NCBI GenBank assembly: GCA_030019105.1
Contig: JASEGY010000059.1
Coordinates: 1-12,533, forward strand
Direction: 5' to 3'
Source: a bacterium
GTDB lineage: Bacteria; UBA9089; JASEGY01
DNA: 12,533 nucleotides
Position numbers and translations under genes: made by a program
The notes under the pieces: generated by a model
The model's input: the letters and a program-made list of their open reading frames with translations, nothing else
Told to the model about the DNA's origin: nothing
Database searches by the model: none
Part shown: piece by piece, positions 4,338-12,319 of the stretch
Layout: each line of letters opens with the position of its first letter
Position numbering within the stretch: position 1 is the stretch's first letter

Positions 4338-4408
4338 CGCAAAGGCGTTGAACATCATCTCGGCCACTCTGTGGTTTAAATCTATTTGCACAGGTCGAGC
4401 TTTTTTAC

Positions 4409-4437
4409 TTGACTTGACCATTGCTATAAGCTATAAT
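4409..4437 (+). promoter_or_regulatory. Sigma-70 promoter for the helix-turn-helix gene
   Basis: TTGACT (4409-4414), a 17-base spacer and TATAAT (4432-4437) form a near-consensus promoter facing right. Transcription would start near 4444, leaving a leader of about 180 nt before the ATG at 4625. It is the only good promoter between the MITE-like element and this gene. Confidence 0.75.
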
Positions 4438-4480
4438 ATACCCACTACTGAACAAAGAGCATTGAGCCGCAAGAAGATAG

Positions 4481-4608
4481 AATTCGGTAAAAAGTGTAAA
4501 GCGATCTCCGGCTATTTTTAGGCCGGATGAAACGATGCCGAATTTGGTTATCGTTTGATACCTGAACGCTTACTCCATACCCGCATACCACCTGCCCAAT
4601 GAAGCAGG
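4481..4608 (+). promoter_or_regulatory. Structured 5' leader with a possible pseudoknot
   Basis: Within the leader, AATTCGG (4481-4487) can pair with CCGAATT (4538-4544), enclosing a CCGGC/GCCGG hairpin (4508-4526). ACGAT (4532-4536), inside that loop, can pair with ATCGT (4550-4554) outside it, giving an H-type pseudoknot. A third stem, CCTGC/GCAGG (4591-4608), ends directly before the AAAGGAGG ribosome site. I do not recognise a known riboswitch class. The pairings are read directly; regulatory function is inferred, and short stems can arise by chance. Confidence 0.35.
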
Positions 4609-4624
4609 AAAGGAGGTTGATAAA

Positions 4625-4993
4625 ATGCAAGAGGTTTTGACCCTAAAGGAGGCAGCCGACTTCTTAAGAGCTTCTCCTAATACTATCTACAACCTCATCA
4701 AGAAGCACGAAATCCCAGCCTCAAAGATAGGCAGACAGTATAAATTCACCAGACTTGAACTCCTCTCCTGGCTGGCAGAACATTCCCTTTACCATCGCAG
4801 CTACCTCAAGGAATACTTAGAGGCTATCTTCCAGGATGCCTGGGATGAGGATAAAGCAAAGGACGAACCACCCTGGAGCGATGAGCAGATAGTCGAGTTT
4901 GTCGAGTCCGTCCGAAAGAAGAAGGGATCAAGATACTCTCTCCATATCAATTCCGAAAGCTTTTATAATGGCAACCCCACCTCAGGCATCTGA
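4625..4993 (+). CDS. Excisionase-like helix-turn-helix DNA-binding protein
   Basis: A 122-aa protein whose residues 4-50 (LTLKEAADFLRASPNTIYNLIKKHEIPASKIGRQYKF...) are a classic excisionase/MerR-type winged helix (HTH_17 family): a helix-turn-helix followed by the basic IGRQYKFTR wing. Proteins of this type bind DNA as small regulators or recombination directionality factors. The remaining 70 residues are polar, with a PPWSDEQIVEFVESVRKKK segment and no recognised domain. The ATG at 4625 is set by AAAGGAGG eight bases upstream. It has its own promoter and structured leader. Its last 31 bp overlap, tail to tail, the DUF4126 gene on the other strand. No integrase or partner toxin is adjacent, so whether it acts as an excisionase, antitoxin or ordinary regulator is open. 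Confidence 0.85.
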   Translation: MQEVLTLKEAADFLRASPNTIYNLIKKHEIPASKIGRQYKFTRLELLSWLAEHSLYHRSYLKEYLEAIFQDAWDEDKAKDEPPWSDEQIVEFVESVRKKKGSRYSLHINSESFYNGNPTSGI

Positions 4994-5982
4994 TTTTCCC
5001 CTGTTTCTTGACTACGCCGGAATAAATCCTTTTTTATCGCCTCAATAATATTCCTCTGATGTTTGTAAAAGCGGACATCAAATCCTCTGTCAGTTTCAGA
5101 AGTAAAAAAAGAGATTTCATCGAATAACACGCCTTTACTGTCATGAACCTCCAGGTTTTTGACAGGCAGCCACGTGGTTGATTTGCCCCCAACGAGCACA
5201 CCTATCCGGTCCGGTTGTTCGACCAGAACAAGATGGGCTGACTTATTTCGCGGCACAGAGGGGACCATGCCTGTGGTTATTGGAACAGCCCAGACCAGGC
5301 GGTCCGCGCGGCCAAGCTGATTTCTGGCTTTTAATGGAAGGCTGCGGCCTAATTCCGCCTCCTCTTCTTCCTTTGATCCAAAGCTGAACAACTTAAAGAA
5401 GACGAATCGAATGGTCGCGATAATATGCCGGGCTAATTTGGGGGCGAGGTAAATAAATAATGCCAGGAAGAGGAGGACCAACACTGCCGAGATAATCGGG
5501 TGCTGATAAATAAGCACTAAGCCGCCAATTACTACCACGTCTTCGCCCACACTTACCGCAATGTTAGAAACCGGCTCAGGTGAAGTATTTATTGCCAGGC
5601 GGGCGCCGGCTTTTGTGGTATGGGCAGCCAGGGCTACTCCACCGCAAAGGAGGGCGGCTAAGACTTCCAGAGTCGGATCCGCCTCACCGAGAACCGTAAT
5701 AGCCAGAAAGGCAGCGCCCAGAGGCCGGACCGCGGTATGAACAGCATCCCACATAGAATCAACCCAGGGCACTTTGTCTGCAAAGAATTCCACAAAGTAA
5801 AGGAAACCGGAAACCAACAGGATAACCGGATGCCCTAATATTTCCAGTTGCTGCATTTCGGGACTCAGGGCAATCCAATCCAGGTTCAAGGATAGGCTGA
5901 GGGCAAAGACCGTGAGGTAAAGATTTATGCCCGCAAGAGCAGAAAGGCCCAGGGCAGTGGATAGCAACTGGAGTGTTTGCAT
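4963..5982 (-). CDS. DUF4126 family integral membrane protein
   Basis: A 339-aa protein. Residues 1-200 are hydrophobic and match the DUF4126 family: an opening LGLSALAGINLYLTVFALSL segment, then likely membrane helices near 51-68, 84-98, 105-121, 143-159 and 162-180, with conserved-looking WDAVHTAVRPLGAA and HTTKAGARLAINTSPEPVSN loops. The C-terminal 140 residues are soluble and charged, starting with KEEEEAELGRS. I do not recognise them, and they are longer than I expect for the family. The biochemical role of DUF4126 is unknown; location in the cytoplasmic membrane is clear. The ATG at 5982 has only a weak AAGAGAA ribosome site. The gene stands alone and overlaps the convergent helix-turn-helix gene by 31 bp. 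Confidence 0.88.
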   Translation of the reverse strand: MQTLQLLSTALGLSALAGINLYLTVFALSLSLNLDWIALSPEMQQLEILGHPVILLVSGFLYFVEFFADKVPWVDSMWDAVHTAVRPLGAAFLAITVLGEADPTLEVLAALLCGGVALAAHTTKAGARLAINTSPEPVSNIAVSVGEDVVVIGGLVLIYQHPIISAVLVLLFLALFIYLAPKLARHIIATIRFVFFKLFSFGSKEEEEAELGRSLPLKARNQLGRADRLVWAVPITTGMVPSVPRNKSAHLVLVEQPDRIGVLVGGKSTTWLPVKNLEVHDSKGVLFDEISFFTSETDRGFDVRFYKHQRNIIEAIKKDLFRRSQETGENQMPEVGLPL

Positions 5983-6004
5983 AACATTGTTCTCTTGAAA
6001 ATGA

Positions 6005-6093
6005 GGTAAATAGACTGAAGGCTGAAGGCTTTTAGGAACAATCTTCAGTCTTCAGCCTTCAGCCTTCAGCCTTCAGCCTTCAGACTATCTACC
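6005..6093. repeat. Palindromic array of CTGAAGG/CTTCAGC heptamers
   Basis: The left arm GGTAAATAGACTGAAGGC continues to 6030. The right arm (about 6043-6093) carries tandem CTTCAGC heptamers ending CAGACTATCTACC, the inverse of the left end. The right arm runs into the 3' end of the RpnS-thioesterase gene and supplies its last codons (LKAEG) and its TGA stop. As RNA from that gene it would form a strong stem at the 3' end. No U-run follows, so a classical terminator is not supported. Confidence 0.8.
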
Positions 6094-6575
6094 TGAATAG
6101 TTACCATTGCCTTCAATTCTGGAGGTAATCTTATAGGCCGGCCGGATTTATTCAAACAGGCTATCCGGGTTATTCCCTGAACGATGAGTCGTGGATCAGA
6201 TTTGCTTTTGACAGTATGCTCCAGGGTGAAGCTGGCCCGGCTGAGGTTGGTCAGCTTAGTTTCTATCTCAAGGATTTCTCCATATCCGGCGGGGGATTTG
6301 TAATCTATCTCTACCCTGACCACCGGGAAAAGTGTCCCCTGGGAGTGGTAGTCTGAAAGGGCTTCCAGTAGGCTCAATTCTCTAATTTCCTGCAACAAAG
6401 GGCCAACCGACTCAGCCATACCAGACCCGTAGCGTCGTTTTACCAGCCGGGCGAGCATTCGCCGTTCCGACTCCAAACCCTGCTGAAGACCCTCCTGGCG
6501 TCCTGCTTGGAGCCCTGCTTGGAGCCCTTCCTCCTTCCATTCCCTGGTCCATTCTTTAACCCGTTCGGCTAACAT
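6066..6575 (-). CDS. RpnS-like C-terminal domain fused to the C-terminal part of a hotdog acyl-CoA thioesterase
   Basis: A 169-aa hybrid. Residues 1-72 are nearly identical to the C-terminal domain of the rpn gene at 7438-8583: MLAERVKEWTREWKEEG, four LQxG/RQxG tetrapeptides, then a DUF4351-like RRYGSGMAESVGPLLQEIRELSLLE. Residues 73-158 are a YbgC/4-hydroxybenzoyl-CoA-thioesterase-type hotdog domain (LFPVVRVEIDYKSPAGYGE, then LEIETKLTNLSRASFTLEH, ending NKSGRPIRLPPEL). The first 35-40 thioesterase residues, including the usual catalytic D-x-x-GVVYYANY segment, are absent, so thioesterase activity is doubtful. The start is the ATG at 6575, preceded by GGGAGGTGA at good spacing; a TTG at 6593 is in frame but lies upstream of that site. 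The gene follows leuD and ends inside a heptamer repeat. It may be a functional stand-alone RpnS, a novel fusion or a decaying remnant. Confidence 0.75.
   Translation of the reverse strand: MLAERVKEWTREWKEEGLQAGLQAGRQEGLQQGLESERRMLARLVKRRYGSGMAESVGPLLQEIRELSLLEALSDYHSQGTLFPVVRVEIDYKSPAGYGEILEIETKLTNLSRASFTLEHTVKSKSDPRLIVQGITRIACLNKSGRPIRLPPELKAMVTIQVDSLKAEG
6477..6524 (-). repeat. Four-unit 12-bp minisatellite (LQxG/RQxG) in the fusion gene
   Basis: Four 12-bp units encode LQAG-LQAG-RQEG-LQQG. The paralogous position in the intact rpn gene holds fifteen units, so copy number has changed since the duplication while flanking codons stayed nearly identical. Confidence 0.85.
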
Positions 6576-6676
6576 ATTCTTCACCTCCCGCAATTCTGTT
6601 GATGGGAAAAAAGCTGTTTGTAACTGTGATCGTGGTCACGTTTCATCACTTTTTTTCGGATGCTCAGTGTAACTTG
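6576..6676 (-). pseudogene. 5' remnant of an rpn gene with a duplicated leuC tail
   Basis: From 6676 down to about 6600 this matches the leuC/rpn junction at 8611-8540 almost base for base. It includes the codons of the LeuC tail (YTEHPKKSDET then TGA, out of context here) and the rpn start, MKRDHDHSYKQLFSH. The match then jumps to the segment just before the internal RpnS start, so about 680 bp of nuclease domain is missing. CATC flanks both deletion points in the intact copy. The leftover frame is a 21-codon ORF (6581-6646) whose TGA overlaps the GGAGGTGA ribosome site of the downstream fusion, which could couple their translation. Confidence 0.75.
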
Positions 6677-6727: not shown

Positions 6728-7276
6728 TCAGCTTTCTGTTAACTCGAAATCCCCATGCTTATTGATATGTGCTACCAGACCCCCGTCAGAAAGAATAGTA
6801 GTCATTACTTGAGGCAGCGGAGAGAAAGGGATAGTCTCGTCTTTAGTTCTATTGATTACCTTGCCCTCCGAGAGGGTAACTTCCAGTTCATCTCCGGGCT
6901 CAATCCGGTCAGTATCACAGATAATCACCGGCAGGCCCACATTTATGGCATTCCGATAGAATATTCGGGCAAAGGACCTGGCCAGCACGGCAGAGACACC
7001 TGACAGTTTGATGATGGTTGGGGCATGTTCCCGTGAGGAGCCCAGACCAAAGTTCTTGCCTCCAACCACAAAATCTCCGGGCTTCATTCTGGAAACGAAT
7101 TTAGGATCAGCATCTTCCAGCACGTGTTTGGCTAGTTCCGGCAGATTAGACCGAAGATGAAAATACCGTCCCGGACAGATTAAATCGGTACTAATATCGT
7201 CGCCAAATTTAAAGGCGTTACCTTTAAGTTTCGAGTTCGGGGCACCCGCTTGCGGGTCGTCGGGTTTCGAGTTCAT
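6728..7276 (-). CDS. leuD: 3-isopropylmalate dehydratase small subunit
   Basis: Small subunit of isopropylmalate isomerase, which with LeuC converts 2-isopropylmalate to 3-isopropylmalate in leucine synthesis (cytoplasm). 182 aa of the short LeuD/homoaconitase-small type: KGNAFKFGDDISTDLICPGRYF (18-39), the GKNFGLGSSREHA signature (73-85) and ARSFARIFYRNAINVGLPVI (99-118). Homoaconitase small subunits share these motifs; pairing with leuC supports but does not prove the leucine role. The ATG at 7276 has AAGGGAG upstream. Residues 2-17 (NSKPDDPQAGAPNSKL) are not part of the family core: they are encoded by a short repeat (TTTCGAGTTC twice on the plus strand) around a small ACCCGC/GCGGGT palindrome, an apparent repeat insertion that extended the N-terminus. 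No leuA or leuB is in the window. Confidence 0.93.
   Translation of the reverse strand: MNSKPDDPQAGAPNSKLKGNAFKFGDDISTDLICPGRYFHLRSNLPELAKHVLEDADPKFVSRMKPGDFVVGGKNFGLGSSREHAPTIIKLSGVSAVLARSFARIFYRNAINVGLPVIICDTDRIEPGDELEVTLSEGKVINRTKDETIPFSPLPQVMTTILSDGGLVAHINKHGDFELTES
7228..7276. repeat. Repeat-derived 5' extension of leuD
   Basis: On the plus strand TTTCGAGTTC occurs at about 7229-7238 and 7265-7274, enclosing ACCCGCTTGCGGGT, an ACCCGC/GCGGGT palindrome with two bases at its centre. Both copies are inside the leuD reading frame and encode NSK on either side of PDDPQAGAP. This looks like a small dispersed repeat fused in frame to the start of leuD. Confidence 0.55.
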
Positions 7277-7437: not shown

Positions 7438-7860
7438 TTATCTTCCAGCTACTTCATTCAACTTCTTAAAAAACACCTGACCATCATCATATTCAATCAC
7501 CCACTCTCCAACGGATTCCAGTAAGCTCAATTCTCTAATTCCCTGTAACAAAGGGCTAACCGACTCAGCCATACCCTGCCCGTAGCGCCGTTTTACCAGC
7601 CGGGCAAGCATGCGTCGTTCCGACTTCAAACCCTGCTGGAGTCCCTCCTGGCGTCCCTCCTGGCGTCCCTCCTGGCGTCCCTGCTGGCGTCCCTCCTGGA
7701 GACCCTCCTGGAGTCCCTGCTGGAGTCCCTGCTGGAGTCCCTGCTGGAGTCCCTGCTGGAGTCCCTGCTGGAGTCCCTGCTGGCGTCCCTCCTGGAGACC
7801 CGCCTGGAGACCTTCTTCCTTCCATTCCCTGGTCCATTCTTTAACCCGTTCAGCTAACAT
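7438..7860 (-). CDS. Predicted intragenic RpnS product within rpn
   Basis: Inside rpn, AGGAGGTGA (7866-7874) sits eight bases before an in-frame ATG (7860), a near-ideal ribosome site within coding sequence. Initiation there gives a 140-aa protein lacking the nuclease domain: MLAERVKEWTREWKEEG, fifteen tetrapeptide repeats, then the DUF4351-like tail. In E. coli, rpn genes are reported to make such a short C-terminal protein (RpnS), which binds and inhibits the full-length nuclease. The homologous start is retained in the truncated copy at 6575. That it is translated, and inhibitory, is inference. Confidence 0.6.
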   Translation of the reverse strand: MLAERVKEWTREWKEEGLQAGLQEGRQQGLQQGLQQGLQQGLQQGLQQGLQEGLQEGRQQGRQEGRQEGRQEGLQQGLKSERRMLARLVKRRYGQGMAESVSPLLQGIRELSLLESVGEWVIEYDDGQVFFKKLNEVAGR

Positions 7861-8583
7861 ATTTTTCACCTCCTGCAGTTCTGTTACCGATGGTATCTCT
7901 ACTCCCTTAAAACGGGCAGGGAGCAGAACACGGTGTAACCAGACGGTAAAGGCACGCCTTAAACTCGTCTGTTCGGGGGATTGCAACCATTCCACAAGAC
8001 TGCTGACCACCCTTTGAATGTCTACCGGCTTCCTGCTATTCTCTAAACGAAACAAGGCCGCCGCCAGGTTTCGTTCAGCGGGAAGATCCGTTTCCGTGTA
8101 TGTGCCTTCATCCAGAAGTAAATAGCGGAACCGGGGCCGGTAAGCTCCCAGCCCACCAGGCACCGACACGATAAGATCCGCCACTTCTTCCGCCGCATCC
8201 CAGCTATCCTCCCCATTATACAAAACAACCGGAAAAACCGGAGGTAATCGCCCATCAGAAAGGGTCTGTTTACTCTTAATCAGATCTTGATAGAGCAAAG
8301 CTATATAGGCCAGGACCCGTACCGCCATGTAAGAGTCAACCGTAGACTGAAATTCCAGAAGCAGGTAAACGTAAAGCCAGCCGTCGCCCCACCTGAGCCG
8401 CCAGATTATATCGTCTTCTCTGTCTCGAAGATCGTCGGTGACATAACTTCCGCTCACCTTTTCCAGACTCGAAAAATCAAGTTCCTTTACCCATTCCTCC
8501 CGGACAAAACCCTGGATAAGGTCCCGAACCATCTCCGGATGAGAAAAAAGCTGTTTGTAACTGTGATCGTGGTTACGTTTCAT
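7438..8583 (-). CDS. Rpn family PD-(D/E)XK nuclease (Transposase_31 / DUF4351 type)
   Basis: A 381-aa protein of the Rpn (recombination-promoting nuclease, PF04754-like) family. The nuclease domain (about 1-230) opens with HDHSYKQLFSHPEMVRDLI and shows a PD-(D/E)XK-like site: D57/D58 in REDDIIWRLRW, then E77 and Q79 in LLLEFQS. Family members cut DNA; E. coli Rpn proteins act as toxic anti-phage effectors. After residue 241 come a basic coiled helix, fifteen tetrapeptides (LQxG/RQxG, 259-318) and a DUF4351-like SERRMLARLVKRRYGQGMAE tail. The ATG at 8583 was chosen because it matches the family start and the duplicated copy; it overlaps the leuC stop (ATGAAACGTAA). An upstream ATG at 8634 lies in leuC. 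The gene is inserted between leuC and leuD and probably cotranscribed. A strong internal start (7860) predicts a separate C-terminal product. Confidence 0.88.
   Translation of the reverse strand: MKRNHDHSYKQLFSHPEMVRDLIQGFVREEWVKELDFSSLEKVSGSYVTDDLRDREDDIIWRLRWGDGWLYVYLLLEFQSTVDSYMAVRVLAYIALLYQDLIKSKQTLSDGRLPPVFPVVLYNGEDSWDAAEEVADLIVSVPGGLGAYRPRFRYLLLDEGTYTETDLPAERNLAAALFRLENSRKPVDIQRVVSSLVEWLQSPEQTSLRRAFTVWLHRVLLPARFKGVEIPSVTELQEVKNMLAERVKEWTREWKEEGLQAGLQEGRQQGLQQGLQQGLQQGLQQGLQQGLQEGLQEGRQQGRQEGRQEGRQEGLQQGLKSERRMLARLVKRRYGQGMAESVSPLLQGIRELSLLESVGEWVIEYDDGQVFFKKLNEVAGR
7630..7809 (-). repeat. Fifteen-unit 12-bp minisatellite in rpn
   Basis: A pure 12-bp period (coding consensus close to CTCCAGCAGGGA) encodes fifteen LQxG or RQxG tetrapeptides without frame loss. 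The five central LQQG units are almost identical in DNA, which points to recent slippage or unequal exchange. The paralogous copy has four units. Confidence 0.92.
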
Positions 8584-9856
8584 CACTTTTTTTCGGATAT
8601 TCAGTATAACTGGTTCTCGGATCGGTAATCTCACCAGTCAGGGCAGATGCGGCGGCGGTAGCAGGTGAGGATAGGTAAATATTACCTTTGGGATTACCCA
8701 TCCGGCCCAGAAAATTGCGGTTCTGAGTGGAAAGGCAGTTTTCATTATCCCCTAACACGCCCTGATGAACCCCGACACAGGCGCCACATCCCGGAGAAAC
8801 TATGGTCGCCCCGGATTCAATAAGGGTTTCTATCAGCCCTTCTCTCAGGGCATCTAAATAGACCTGCCGCGAGGCCGGAGTAATAAGCAGTCGGACCCGG
8901 GGATGTTTTTGTTTGCCTCGCATAATCCGGGCCGCTACTCTGAGATCAGCCGGACGGCCGTTGGTGCAGGTGCCAATCAGCACCTGATGAATGGGTGTCC
9001 CGGCTACTTCATCTCCTGATTTAACGTTATCTACGGTATGTGGGAGAGCAACCACCGGAGTAAGACTCCCCGCATCAATCTTTATCTCTCTTTCATAGAC
9101 TGCATCGGCATCAGGGGCTATGGGCCGAAATACATCTTCCCGGCCATCCTCGGCCAGAAACAAACGGGTCACCTCATCGGAGGGGAACAGACCGGCCTTG
9201 GCCCCGGCTTCAACGGCCATATTAGCCATGGTCATCCGGTCGGTTAGTTCCATAGCCTCAATAGCTTCTCCCCCGAATTCGAGGGCTTTGTAAGTAGCCC
9301 CGTCAGCGCCGATCATCCCTATAAGGTGAAGAATAAGGTCCTTGGCGTAAACACCCGGCGGAAAGGTCCCGGCTACTTCAATCCGGAAGGTCTCCGGCAC
9401 CTGAAGCCAGGTCTTACCTAAGACCATCCCCACCGCCACATCAGTTGATCCCATCCCGGTGGAAAAGGCCCCTAATGCCCCACCGGTACAGGTGTGAGAA
9501 TCGGCCCCGATCAATATCTGTCCTGGCTCAAGGTAGGATTCACACACAATCTGGTGACAGACCCCGTCACCGATATCAAATATCTTAGCCCCGGTCTTTT
9601 GGGCAAATTCACGCAGAAAGATATGGTCATTAGACAGCTCCTTGCGCGGACTGGGCGCAGCGTGATCCAGGAAAAAGAAACACTTCCGGGGGTTAGCCAG
9701 AGACTTAAAGCCCATTGATTCTATTTGACGAACCGTAAGCGGCCCGGTGCCATCCTGCGCCAGACAAAGGTCCACCCCGACTACAACAAAATCGCCGGCC
9801 TTCACCTCCTGGCCGGCATGAGTTGAAATAATTTTTTCAGCTATCGTTAATCCCAC
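8573..9856 (-). CDS. leuC: 3-isopropylmalate dehydratase large subunit
   Basis: The 427-aa catalytic, [4Fe-4S]-bearing subunit that partners LeuD in leucine synthesis. It has the LIGADSHTCTGGALGAFSTG motif (115-134), CTNGR with cluster ligand C297, and SPGCGAC with ligands C357 and C360; length and architecture fit the short LeuC/homoaconitase-large type, so a homoaconitase role cannot be excluded. The start is GTG at 9856 with AAGGGAG upstream. The last 13 residues (TSYTEYPKKSDET) extend beyond the usual ITDPR end, and their DNA is duplicated near 6646-6676, next to the rpn remnant. This suggests the tail came with the rpn cassette. The stop overlaps the rpn start by 11 bp. No clear promoter is visible; an inverted-repeat element begins 44 bp upstream of the start. 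Confidence 0.94.
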   Translation of the reverse strand: MGLTIAEKIISTHAGQEVKAGDFVVVGVDLCLAQDGTGPLTVRQIESMGFKSLANPRKCFFFLDHAAPSPRKELSNDHIFLREFAQKTGAKIFDIGDGVCHQIVCESYLEPGQILIGADSHTCTGGALGAFSTGMGSTDVAVGMVLGKTWLQVPETFRIEVAGTFPPGVYAKDLILHLIGMIGADGATYKALEFGGEAIEAMELTDRMTMANMAVEAGAKAGLFPSDEVTRLFLAEDGREDVFRPIAPDADAVYEREIKIDAGSLTPVVALPHTVDNVKSGDEVAGTPIHQVLIGTCTNGRPADLRVAARIMRGKQKHPRVRLLITPASRQVYLDALREGLIETLIESGATIVSPGCGACVGVHQGVLGDNENCLSTQNRNFLGRMGNPKGNIYLSSPATAAASALTGEITDPRTSYTEYPKKSDET

Positions 9857-10652: not shown

Positions 10653-10892
10653 TTAATTCAATTCAGAATCCAGTTGTTGAAAGATCATATTTAATTCTTC
10701 CATGTTCTTTGGGGCCAGTTCTTTTTCAGAAGCGATTGGATGTCTCAAAATTCGTTGAGCCATTTGGATTTCACCTATCAGTCTGCCTTTCTCCATTCCT
10801 TTCTCCATTCCTTTCTCCATTCCTTGCGCTAATCCTATCTGGACAAGCTCTCGACCGGCAACTGTTTGTTCGAGTGGGGTTAACTGCAACAT
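10653..10892 (-). CDS. Predicted intragenic short product of the DUF2887 gene
   Basis: AAAGGAGG (10901-10908) is followed after eight bases by an in-frame ATG at 10892, a near-perfect internal ribosome site. It would yield a 79-aa protein, MLQLTPLEQTVAGRELVQIG, then LAQG, three MEKG units and a helical tail, without the nuclease domain. The position relative to domain boundary and tetrapeptides is the same as in the rpn gene, and the site is encoded by an analogous EV-x-M context (LKEVQTM here, LQEVKNM there). By analogy with E. coli RpnS it may be an intragenic antitoxin. Translation is not demonstrated. Confidence 0.55.
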   Translation of the reverse strand: MLQLTPLEQTVAGRELVQIGLAQGMEKGMEKGMEKGRLIGEIQMAQRILRHPIASEKELAPKNMEELNMIFQQLDSELN

Positions 10893-11483
10893 AGTCTGAA
10901 CCTCCTTTAAGGTTAATTTGGGAAACCGCTGGATAATGGCATATTCCAATAATTCTATCAGTATCTTTGTTTTGTCTTCAGGCAAATTTAATGATTGGAT
11001 GTCTGCTTTCCATTTAGGAACGGCTCCCACCAGTTCTTTTTTACTCAAAACAACCAAAGGCTTCAAAATGGTTAAGGCCCCTGGTTTATCTTTTACCGTT
11101 TTGAGAGAGTCAATCAAATTGACTCGAATCAGTTGATGGGGAGGAATACATGAGAAGAGAGGAGGTATTCCCGGGTCGTATTTCTGATCAAGAAAGAGGA
11201 CAATAGCCACAGCCGAGGTAATATCCTCTTTTTGTTCATAATAGGTACAGATTTCTCGAAATAATCTCCAGTAAATCTTAGGATCAAGGTAGCCTTGAAC
11301 TTCGAGAAAAATATTTGGCCCTTTACCGTCCACGTTTTTGAAGAACCCATCCAAACGCTTTTCGGTAGTCTTAATAGTAATACTCTCGAAGGTATACTGA
11401 CCTTCGACCTTCAAGTGGACGAGTTGCAAAAGACTCTGAGGATCGAATTGAAACAACTCATAAAATAAAGAATCTGTTTTCAA
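10653..11483 (-). CDS. DUF2887 protein, Rpn-like PD-(D/E)XK nuclease
   Basis: A 276-aa protein if started at TTG 11483, giving the family's usual KTDSLFYELFQFDPQSLLQLV N-terminus; GGAGTG lies seven bases upstream. An in-frame ATG at 11528 would add 15 residues, but it lies in an inverted repeat and has no ribosome site. The nuclease-like motif is D45 in KRLDGFF, then E61 and Q63 in IFLEVQGY, and the body (YWRLFREICTYYEQ, DPGIPP, LSKKELVGAVPKW) fits DUF2887, classed with the Rpn/PD-(D/E)XK putative transposases. The C-terminus has three MEKG tetrapeptides. Likely a DNA nuclease; defence, toxin or mobility role is inferred. It stands alone, downstream of repeat elements and a distant promoter at 12140-12168. 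Confidence 0.85.
   Translation of the reverse strand: MKTDSLFYELFQFDPQSLLQLVHLKVEGQYTFESITIKTTEKRLDGFFKNVDGKGPNIFLEVQGYLDPKIYWRLFREICTYYEQKEDITSAVAIVLFLDQKYDPGIPPLFSCIPPHQLIRVNLIDSLKTVKDKPGALTILKPLVVLSKKELVGAVPKWKADIQSLNLPEDKTKILIELLEYAIIQRFPKLTLKEVQTMLQLTPLEQTVAGRELVQIGLAQGMEKGMEKGMEKGRLIGEIQMAQRILRHPIASEKELAPKNMEELNMIFQQLDSELN
10785..10820 (-). repeat. Three-unit 12-bp repeat encoding MEKG
   Basis: Three consecutive 12-bp units encode MEKG-MEKG-MEKG in the C-terminal domain of the DUF2887 protein. Period and position are equivalent to the LQxG/RQxG array of the rpn gene, although the sequence differs. Confidence 0.85.
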
Positions 11484-11515
11484 GACTTCACACTCCGGAA
11501 TGATAGGAATTAAAT

Positions 11516-11764
11516 GATAACTCACCATTCGCTTAATTTTTTGACTAAAAGTTTATTTTCAAGGCCACCGGATCGAAAATTGTTAAAAATAGTTAGAGGG
11601 GACAGATTGCCTCGTATTGACATCCAGGATAACGATAATCATTTTCATAATTTCCTGTCTGATGGTTTGCGATAGTCACACGAGGATTCTTCTATAACTG
11701 CCTGATTCGCACAGAGTTGTAAATTAGCAAAACTCTAATTTTATTAAGCGAATGGTGAGTGATA
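11516..11764. mobile_element. TIR-bounded element next to the DUF2887 gene
   Basis: ACTCACCATTCGCTTAAT (11520-11537) and its exact inverse (11743-11760) are perfect 18-bp terminal inverted repeats bounding 241 bp without an ORF. GATA flanks both ends (11516-11519, 11761-11764), a possible 4-bp target duplication, though the flanks are ATAAATG-rich and a chance match is possible. The left end carries the apparent ATG (11528) of the DUF2887 gene, which argues for that gene's real start being the TTG further in. Confidence 0.55.
11628..11646. promoter_or_regulatory. Fur-box-like palindrome
   Basis: GATAACGATAATCATTTTC matches the classical 19-bp Fur box GATAATGATAATCATTATC at 17 positions. It lies 145 bp upstream of the DUF2887 TTG start, inside the TIR-bounded element. 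A TTGACA (11617-11622) adjoins it on the plus strand but lacks a properly spaced -10. Iron control of a flanking transcript is possible but unproven. Confidence 0.35.
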
Positions 11765-11776
11765 AATGATAAATGA

Positions 11777-12031
11777 TAAATCGTGGATTTCGACAGGGCG
11801 CTATCGGTTTTGTCTATTTTTTAAGCTTAGAAGTAGTCAGCACTTACAGCAGATTGCGGCATTCCGGCCAATCATCTACCGTAGCCCAAAAAAGCCCAAA
11901 AACTCGGTTTTGCCCCTGAAAAGCCAATTTCTGGAATTCTTGGAGGTTACCCCAAAATCCAGAGAAGTAATGTTTATCGGCACTTAAAAAATCGAGATTT
12001 TTCCCAAAGGGGTGTCGAAATCCACGATAAA
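11777..12031. mobile_element. Second TIR-bounded element with perfect 15-bp ends
   Basis: TCGTGGATTTCGACA (11781-11795) is inverted exactly at 12013-12027, with weaker inverted similarity reaching about 45 bases inward (to a TTTTTTAAG block). TAAA flanks both ends (11777-11780, 12028-12031), compatible with a 4-bp duplication but embedded in ATAAATGATA repeats, so weak evidence. A 73-codon plus-strand ORF crosses it, but I recognise no protein family. Repeats related to AATGATAGGAATTA occur at 11499-11512 and 12031-12056, framing both this element and its neighbour. Confidence 0.5.
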
Positions 12032-12061
12032 TGATAGGAATTAATGATAGGAATTTTGATT

Positions 12062-12319
12062 TTAGGGTAATTGGGAAGAAGTGTCACAGAAGCCGCCCCC
12101 CCAGATGTTTTTTAGTGCTTTTAAGCCTACTGATTTTGAATTATAGTATATAGAAATGGGTGAGTCAAGTGAAAAGTTGAGGAAAAGAGGAAAATTTGGG
12201 AAATAATTTGGGGGATCGAGCAGCCAAAGAGAGCGGGTGGGTAAAATTGGGGCACACTCCTCCCGTGGTGTCCCAGGATGATAGCGCAAGAGTTGTCTCG
12301 TCTCGACAGTGAAAAGTTT
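12062..12319. other. Non-coding stretch carrying a leftward promoter
   Basis: Between the repeat cluster and the partial gene at the right edge I see no credible coding sequence; minus-strand ORFs here are overlapping and of low-complexity composition. The only supported feature is the promoter at 12140-12168. Confidence 0.5.
12140..12168 (-). promoter_or_regulatory. Sigma-70 promoter facing left
   Basis: On the minus strand TTGACT (12168-12163), a 17-base spacer and TATAAT (12145-12140) form a near-consensus promoter with a predicted start near 12133. It points to the DUF2887 gene about 650 bases away, through both TIR-bounded elements. It may serve that gene with a very long leader, or a small RNA; no closer good promoter was found. 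Confidence 0.65.

Follow-up and report, generated by a model that had tools for sequence, protein, structure and literature searches.

The window, i.e. the whole stretch of 12,533 nucleotides that was analysed, is contig C608 of G000, a 4.3-Mb draft genome that is 95% complete and consists of 1053 contigs. On its minus strand, the window encodes, in this order, leuC, an intact rpn gene, leuD and a hybrid open reading frame (Table 1). The intact rpn gene contains an internal ATG at position 7860, from which an RpnS protein of 140 amino acids is encoded. In G001, a genome of the same genus, leuC (4343-5587), leuD (5605-6144) and a gene coding for a thioesterase of 127 amino acids (6162-6545) are contiguous on L069 and no rpn gene is present. 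Relative to this arrangement, the window carries two rpn insertions, one between leuC and leuD and one between leuD and the thioesterase gene.

Table 1. Features of the leuC-leuD region, in positions of the window
Feature	Position	Strand	Evidence
leuC, 3' end overlapping the rpn start, TAA stop within rpn codons 3-4	8573..9856	-	Pfam Aconitase, comparison with G001
Intact rpn, 381 aa, Transposase_31 nuclease domain, 16 repeat units	7438..8583	-	Pfam PF04754, E=4.4e-32
leuD, 3-isopropylmalate dehydratase small subunit type	6728..7276	-	Pfam Aconitase_C, synteny with G001
Relic rpn sequence, made up of 5' leader and codons 1-15, with the ATG at 6646-6644	6601..6674	-	69 of 74 nt shared with the intact rpn starting at 8583
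Retained internal Shine-Dalgarno region, AACAGAATTGCGGGAGGTGAAGAAT, 5' of the fusion ATG	6576..6600	-	Equals 7861-7885 of the intact copy
Fusion ORF, 169 aa, RpnS piece and truncated thioesterase	6066..6575	-	Translation, open frame
RpnS piece, residues 1-72 of the fusion, with five repeat units of GxQx type, the last degenerate	6360..6575	-	
Thioesterase piece, from G001 L40 to the end, then read-through into a 7-nt repeat	6066..6359	-	Pfam PF13279/PF03061, partial TIGR02799/TIGR00051, blastn to G001

Both rpn genes that have a nuclease half begin inside the end of a housekeeping gene (window 8573-8611; C1019, i.e. L021, 3305-3315), namely leuC in the window and, by eye, a 6-phosphofructokinase gene in C1019, and in both cases the stop codon of the upstream gene is made by rpn codons 3-4 (ATGAARCGTAA). 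In G001, no rpn gene lies directly behind leuC or behind the 6-phosphofructokinase-like gene. A second, different Rpn-like gene (10653-11528, minus strand; DUF2887, PF11103, E=2.2e-38) is also encoded in the window; its C-terminal part includes a short array of GMEK repeats. Furthermore, a 245-nt MITE-like repeat (11782-12026, plus strand) is present, with inverted ends of 14 nt (CGTGGATTTCGACA / TGTCGAAATCCACG); a 6-nt target duplication was seen by eye at four places. A search of G000 with positions 11700-12100 gave at least 41 matches, the window itself included (40 of 57 candidates scored); among the matches listed, 12 besides that of the window are nearly full-length, with 95-100% identity, and a further four have 72-75% identity. 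One copy of this repeat sits within an Rpn gene on C230.

The hybrid ORF joins an rpn-derived RpnS piece in frame to the C-terminal two thirds of a YbgC-type hotdog thioesterase; Pfam and blastn matches to both halves agree with the initial annotation in this respect, and only small corrections to it are needed. Its extent had been given as 6066..6646: the end at 6066 stands, while 6646 corresponds to the first base of the former rpn start codon and the likely start is the ATG at 6575-6573 behind GGGAGGTGA (a mechanical ORF list puts it at TTG 6593 instead). The internal Shine-Dalgarno and ATG (GGGAGGTGAAGAATATG) are present at 6575 and align with the intact rpn copy. The N-terminal RpnS residues are MLAERVKEWTREWKEEG, followed by five GxQx-type units and by SERRMLARLVKRRYG...LSLLEA, after which the frame continues as hotdog thioesterase with LSDYHSQGTLFPVVRVEIDYKSP. 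As had been claimed, the frame is open across the join, with 169 codons without a stop. Such an in-frame continuation is a 1-in-3 outcome, as the thioesterase sequence has stops after 13 and 27 codons in its two alternative frames. In blastn searches, the fusion matches the two rpn copies that have a nuclease half at E=2e-52 and 3e-43, i.e. more than by chance. A 7-nt tandem repeat (CTTCAGC, 5.9 copies, 6043-6083) overlaps the end of the ORF and, in part, a 27-nt inverted repeat (6004-6030 / 6068-6094). Between positions 5950 and 8700, a promoter scan found none (1.8 expected) and a terminator scan found five (3.5 expected).

The C-terminal piece is matched by the Pfam models 4HBT_2 (PF13279, E=2.4e-9, profile positions 38-120 of 122) and 4HBT (PF03061, E=1.2e-8, from profile position 19) and, partially and below cutoff, by the NCBIfam YbgC models TIGR02799 and TIGR00051. 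The fusion shares with YbgC/FadM-type acyl-CoA thioesterases (TIGR02799/TIGR00051) the sequence from residue 40 on. Indeed, similarity to the G001 thioesterase, whose solved structural relatives are 3hm0, 5v10 and 1s5u, begins at L40 and not at about residue 36 as first described, with 77% identity at the protein level and 84% at the DNA level (208/249, blastn). The catalytic segment is absent, as previously noted: unlike a YbgC/FadM-type thioesterase, the fusion lacks the first 39 residues with the TD motif and D11, which we take from the 4HBT/YbgC literature to be the catalytic Asp, and the same stretch presumably also holds the central hotdog helix. In an alignment of seven thioesterases, 9 of the 14 invariant columns, D11 included, fall in the lost segment, and the remaining five (G47, Y59, Y65, G101 and T103) are all kept in the fusion. 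At E<=0.001, the fusion is the only match to PF13279 and PF03061 in G000, a genome incomplete enough for a second thioesterase copy to have been missed, and G001 has one match to the former and two to the latter. Judging from these matches, the event would in practice most likely have cost G000 the one thioesterase of this family recognised in its assembly.

Immediately upstream of the fusion, a relic of the rpn 5' end, leader DNA included, shares 93% identity with the intact copy (blastn), and a DNA search of G000 likewise matched it to C1019. The relic peptide, MKRDHDHSYKQLFSH, spans 6646-6601 and then runs out of frame to a TGA (6583-6581) inside the Shine-Dalgarno of the hybrid, to whose translation that of the relic could therefore couple. 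Similarity to rpn picks up again at 6600, which is 25 nt ahead of the internal ATG, and alignment with the intact window copy places the missing part, about 652 nt, at 8537-7886 of that copy. The join between RpnS and thioesterase lies at about 6360/6359, with a microhomology of 2-3 nt by eye, and cost the last 24 residues of RpnS together with the first 39 of the thioesterase. That the nuclease half was deleted and the internal Shine-Dalgarno and ATG were kept, as initially proposed, is borne out by the empty site in G001 and by four sibling rpn copies. Since this site is empty in G001, G000 would have received an rpn insertion and then undergone two deletions. An rpn gene would have inserted between leuD and the YbgC-type thioesterase gene, like the other one between leuC and leuD, and then lost most of its nuclease half; through a second deletion, the RpnS region would have become continuous with the thioesterase from codon 40 on. 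With the internal Shine-Dalgarno and ATG surviving, the hybrid can probably be translated. Strain-specific debris, according to the initial annotation, would show itself by close relatives with the thioesterase intact; G001 indeed encodes an intact one, yet it represents another species of the genus and not another strain. A misassembly between rpn repeats could also give rise to a chimeric ORF, given a draft of 1053 contigs in which the rpn repeat array of C1019 contains a run of N. However, no sibling copy has the same sequence as the fused RpnS piece (80-89% DNA identity in matching blocks) and both joins share, by eye, only a few nucleotides, too short for a repeat-driven misjoin, so that an assembly artefact appears extremely unlikely.

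The close rpn family of G000 has five members, with 75-100% protein identity in matched blocks. A nuclease half is present in the window copy (7438-8583) and in C1019, whose repeat array, interrupted by the run of N, has at least 11 units counted by eye. The three members without it are the hybrid, C85 (an RpnS of 88 amino acids from the ATG) and C188 (92 amino acids), in which 25, 110 and 100 nt, respectively, are kept upstream of the internal ATG; the breakpoints of C85 and C188, 10 nt apart, may be one event. All three retain the Shine-Dalgarno, the ATG and at least most of RpnS, including its tail in C85 and C188, and have 3, 4 and 5 repeat units among them, the fusion having 5. More distant Rpn genes are also present in G000; PF04754 has six matches in this genome, two of which are pieces of one gene on C230. 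At E<=0.01, the C85 RpnS found matches only in G000 and G001 among 19 genomes of the phylum, and that in G001 is weak. Antitoxin-only RpnS remnants thus recur in G000, and this recurrence is the part worth a second look: three truncated copies that all keep Shine-Dalgarno, ATG and RpnS suggest something more regular than random decay, which argues against their being mere debris.

By eye, the solo RpnS gene of C85 lies in the context rpsB-tsf-pyrH-rpnS-frr. The gap between pyrH and frr is occupied by this gene in G000 (L019 3380-3996, C85) and by a small ORF and a PIN-like ORF, of VapC type by eye, in G001 (L102 2232-3447, C74). The same site thus holds different toxin-antitoxin-like parts in the two genomes.

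Relative to G001, dN/dS is 0.185 for the thioesterase piece, 0.083 for leuD and 0.113 for leuC, the nonsynonymous excess in the thioesterase piece not being significant (Fisher p 0.08-0.16 depending on rounding). The pN/pS of the RpnS piece is 0.16 against the full copy of C608, 0.23 against C85, 0.20 against C188 and 0.39 against the full copy of C1019. These ratios cover both sides of the join, the comparison that the initial annotation had put forward. The low pN/pS of the RpnS piece was rejected as proof of function, because the relict nuclease codons of C85 and C188 are equally constrained. Indeed, the 28 relict codons of these two copies, compared with the two copies that have a nuclease half, gave nonsynonymous to synonymous counts of 0:4, 1:4, 1:7 and 2:7, and C85 compared with C188 gave 1:5. 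Since the relict codons show the same signal, the low pN/pS is not assignable to the time after truncation. Recent truncation is the likelier account of these counts, and translation of the C85 and C188 relicts is possible, their upstream frames being open. Over 50 shared codons, with the unalignable repeat arrays left out, the copy-unique changes (synonymous/nonsynonymous: fusion 2/2, C85 4/2, C188 5/2, full C608 1/0, full C1019 2/5) are too few to decide. The differences between fusion and G001 thioesterase, polarised with 12 outgroup proteins, split 10:10 over 20 sites, a count that included the poorly aligning C-terminal ends; this lack of skew toward the fusion side is as compatible with continued constraint as with a recent event.

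These counts bear on whether the three RpnS remnants have been kept by selection as antitoxin-only genes, with the thioesterase part as a passenger; possible targets would then be, for example, Rpn copies with few repeats that arrive from outside or are missing from the assembly. We consider such maintenance unlikely. It would fit the presence of three RpnS-only copies against two with a nuclease half (at >=75% protein identity), the position of all three truncations 25-110 nt upstream of the internal ATG, and the mutually close repeat numbers of 3, 4 and 5. However, the equal constraint on the relict nuclease codons means that this signature either arose before truncation or has nothing to do with RpnS, and no RpnL with 3-5 repeats was seen in the close family of five. 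Moreover, the neighbouring C85 and C188 breakpoints possibly reflect a single event, and the RpnS tail, still present in C85 and C188, is missing from the fusion.

The fusion was also sought in related genomes, as the initial annotation had suggested. It was not found in 60 other genomes, 15 of which matched one or the other of its halves. A contig scan of further genomes yielded 26 loci, 25 of which were inspected, with no match beyond residue 88 of the 175-aa query, and none of 12 pattern matches in viral contigs was confirmed as a fusion. Records from the genome itself may be missing from the contig and viral scans, so that the absence of the fusion elsewhere is weakly tested; these limited searches revealed no second genome with it.

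According to Zhong et al. (PMC10327210), RpnS blocks its own RpnL and is a dimeric three-helix bundle, and one four-residue repeat added to S or L of E. coli RpnC abolishes neutralisation, which matching repeats restore. In the intact 140-aa RpnS of the window, helices are predicted at residues 2-93, 95-106, 111-123 and 127-138 (model, pLDDT 89). The match of the fusion to this protein ends at residue 116 of 140: an RpnS domain is present, as initially annotated, but its last 24 residues, a loss that had been overlooked, are missing, and with them half of helix 111-123 and all of helix 127-138, leaving the C-terminal helical bundle incomplete. The long first helix with the four-residue repeats is kept (helix 2-49 in the model of the fusion), with 5 units compared with 16 in the Rpn of the window, both counts including the last, degenerate unit. 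In the AlphaFold model of the fusion, pLDDT is 87-92 for the RpnS part up to residue 70 and 30-56 for the hotdog part, a range that is uninformative by itself, as the alignment held one thioesterase. The DUF4351 model (PF14261) matches the relatives L043 and L045 and has no match in the fusion, the two solo copies or the intact RpnS of the window, and is blind to the whole subfamily. A PDB fold search with the RpnS model gave 11 matches, none at E <= 0.001, the published RpnAS crystal not being among them; a PDB sequence search gave two, both to the repeat helix, and PADLOC only weak ones, in the C-terminal helical part.

With its RpnS C-terminal end missing and its repeats mismatched (5 vs 16), the fusion appears poorly suited to neutralise the neighbouring Rpn, and such neutralisation is not supported. 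The repeat-matching rule itself is extrapolated from one E. coli pair, RpnC. The missing end and the mismatch bear on the proposal that the fusion is a working solo antitoxin which binds the neighbouring RpnL, its hotdog part serving as a fold or oligomer scaffold. In favour of it, the Shine-Dalgarno, the ATG, the long helix 1 and the next helix are kept, the RpnS part is well modelled, and PMC10327210 describes separate rpnS genes in E. coli, such as rpnES (ypaA) and second rpnCS copies, and the detection of one solo RpnS as protein. Nevertheless, given the lost helices, the repeat numbers and the absence of any relative with the fusion among the genomes and contigs scanned, we regard such an antitoxin as very unlikely; its scaffold element is not supported either, the thioesterase piece being without the segment up to residue 39.

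Solo RpnS genes as a kind are already published. A search of the literature from 2023 on for an orphan RpnS antitoxin found nothing, and among the papers listed only PMC10327210 deals with these genes. Like the solo rpnS genes of E. coli in that paper, the fusion contains an rpn-derived RpnS apart from the nuclease half, with its own Shine-Dalgarno and start. Those named there lie downstream of the parent rpn; unlike them, the RpnS of the fusion has its C-terminal end cut, is joined to an unrelated enzyme piece and differs in repeat number from its neighbour. The intact neighbour shares with the Rpn / Transposase_31 (PF04754) genes-within-genes toxin-antitoxin systems the nuclease domain, the internal Shine-Dalgarno and ATG and the four-residue repeats, whereas the fusion copy lacks the nuclease domain.

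Overall, we read the fusion, with reasonable confidence, as most likely being debris of recent origin and without function, in which two broken genes became joined in frame by chance. The open frame can be explained without selection by the 1-in-3 chance of the frame and the retained start. Decay is not clearly visible, as there is no stop in 169 codons, the pN/pS of RpnS is low and the dN/dS of the thioesterase piece is 0.185. At the far end of speculation, and hardly to be expected, RpnS genes might be repeatedly excised and kept in housekeeping operons of this lineage, the captured hotdog part of one of them replacing the lost helices and making a new oligomer that binds short-repeat Rpn from phages or plasmids.

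If the fusion is debris, its significance is mainly that of a warning, namely that the ORF should not be named acyl-CoA thioesterase. A single genome would here show a decay path of a gene-within-gene toxin-antitoxin system, in which the toxin half goes while the antitoxin start and frame stay, and the antitoxin frame left after such decay can read into adjacent genes. Should all three RpnS-only copies turn out to be maintained, they would form a natural set for testing repeat-number specificity outside E. coli.
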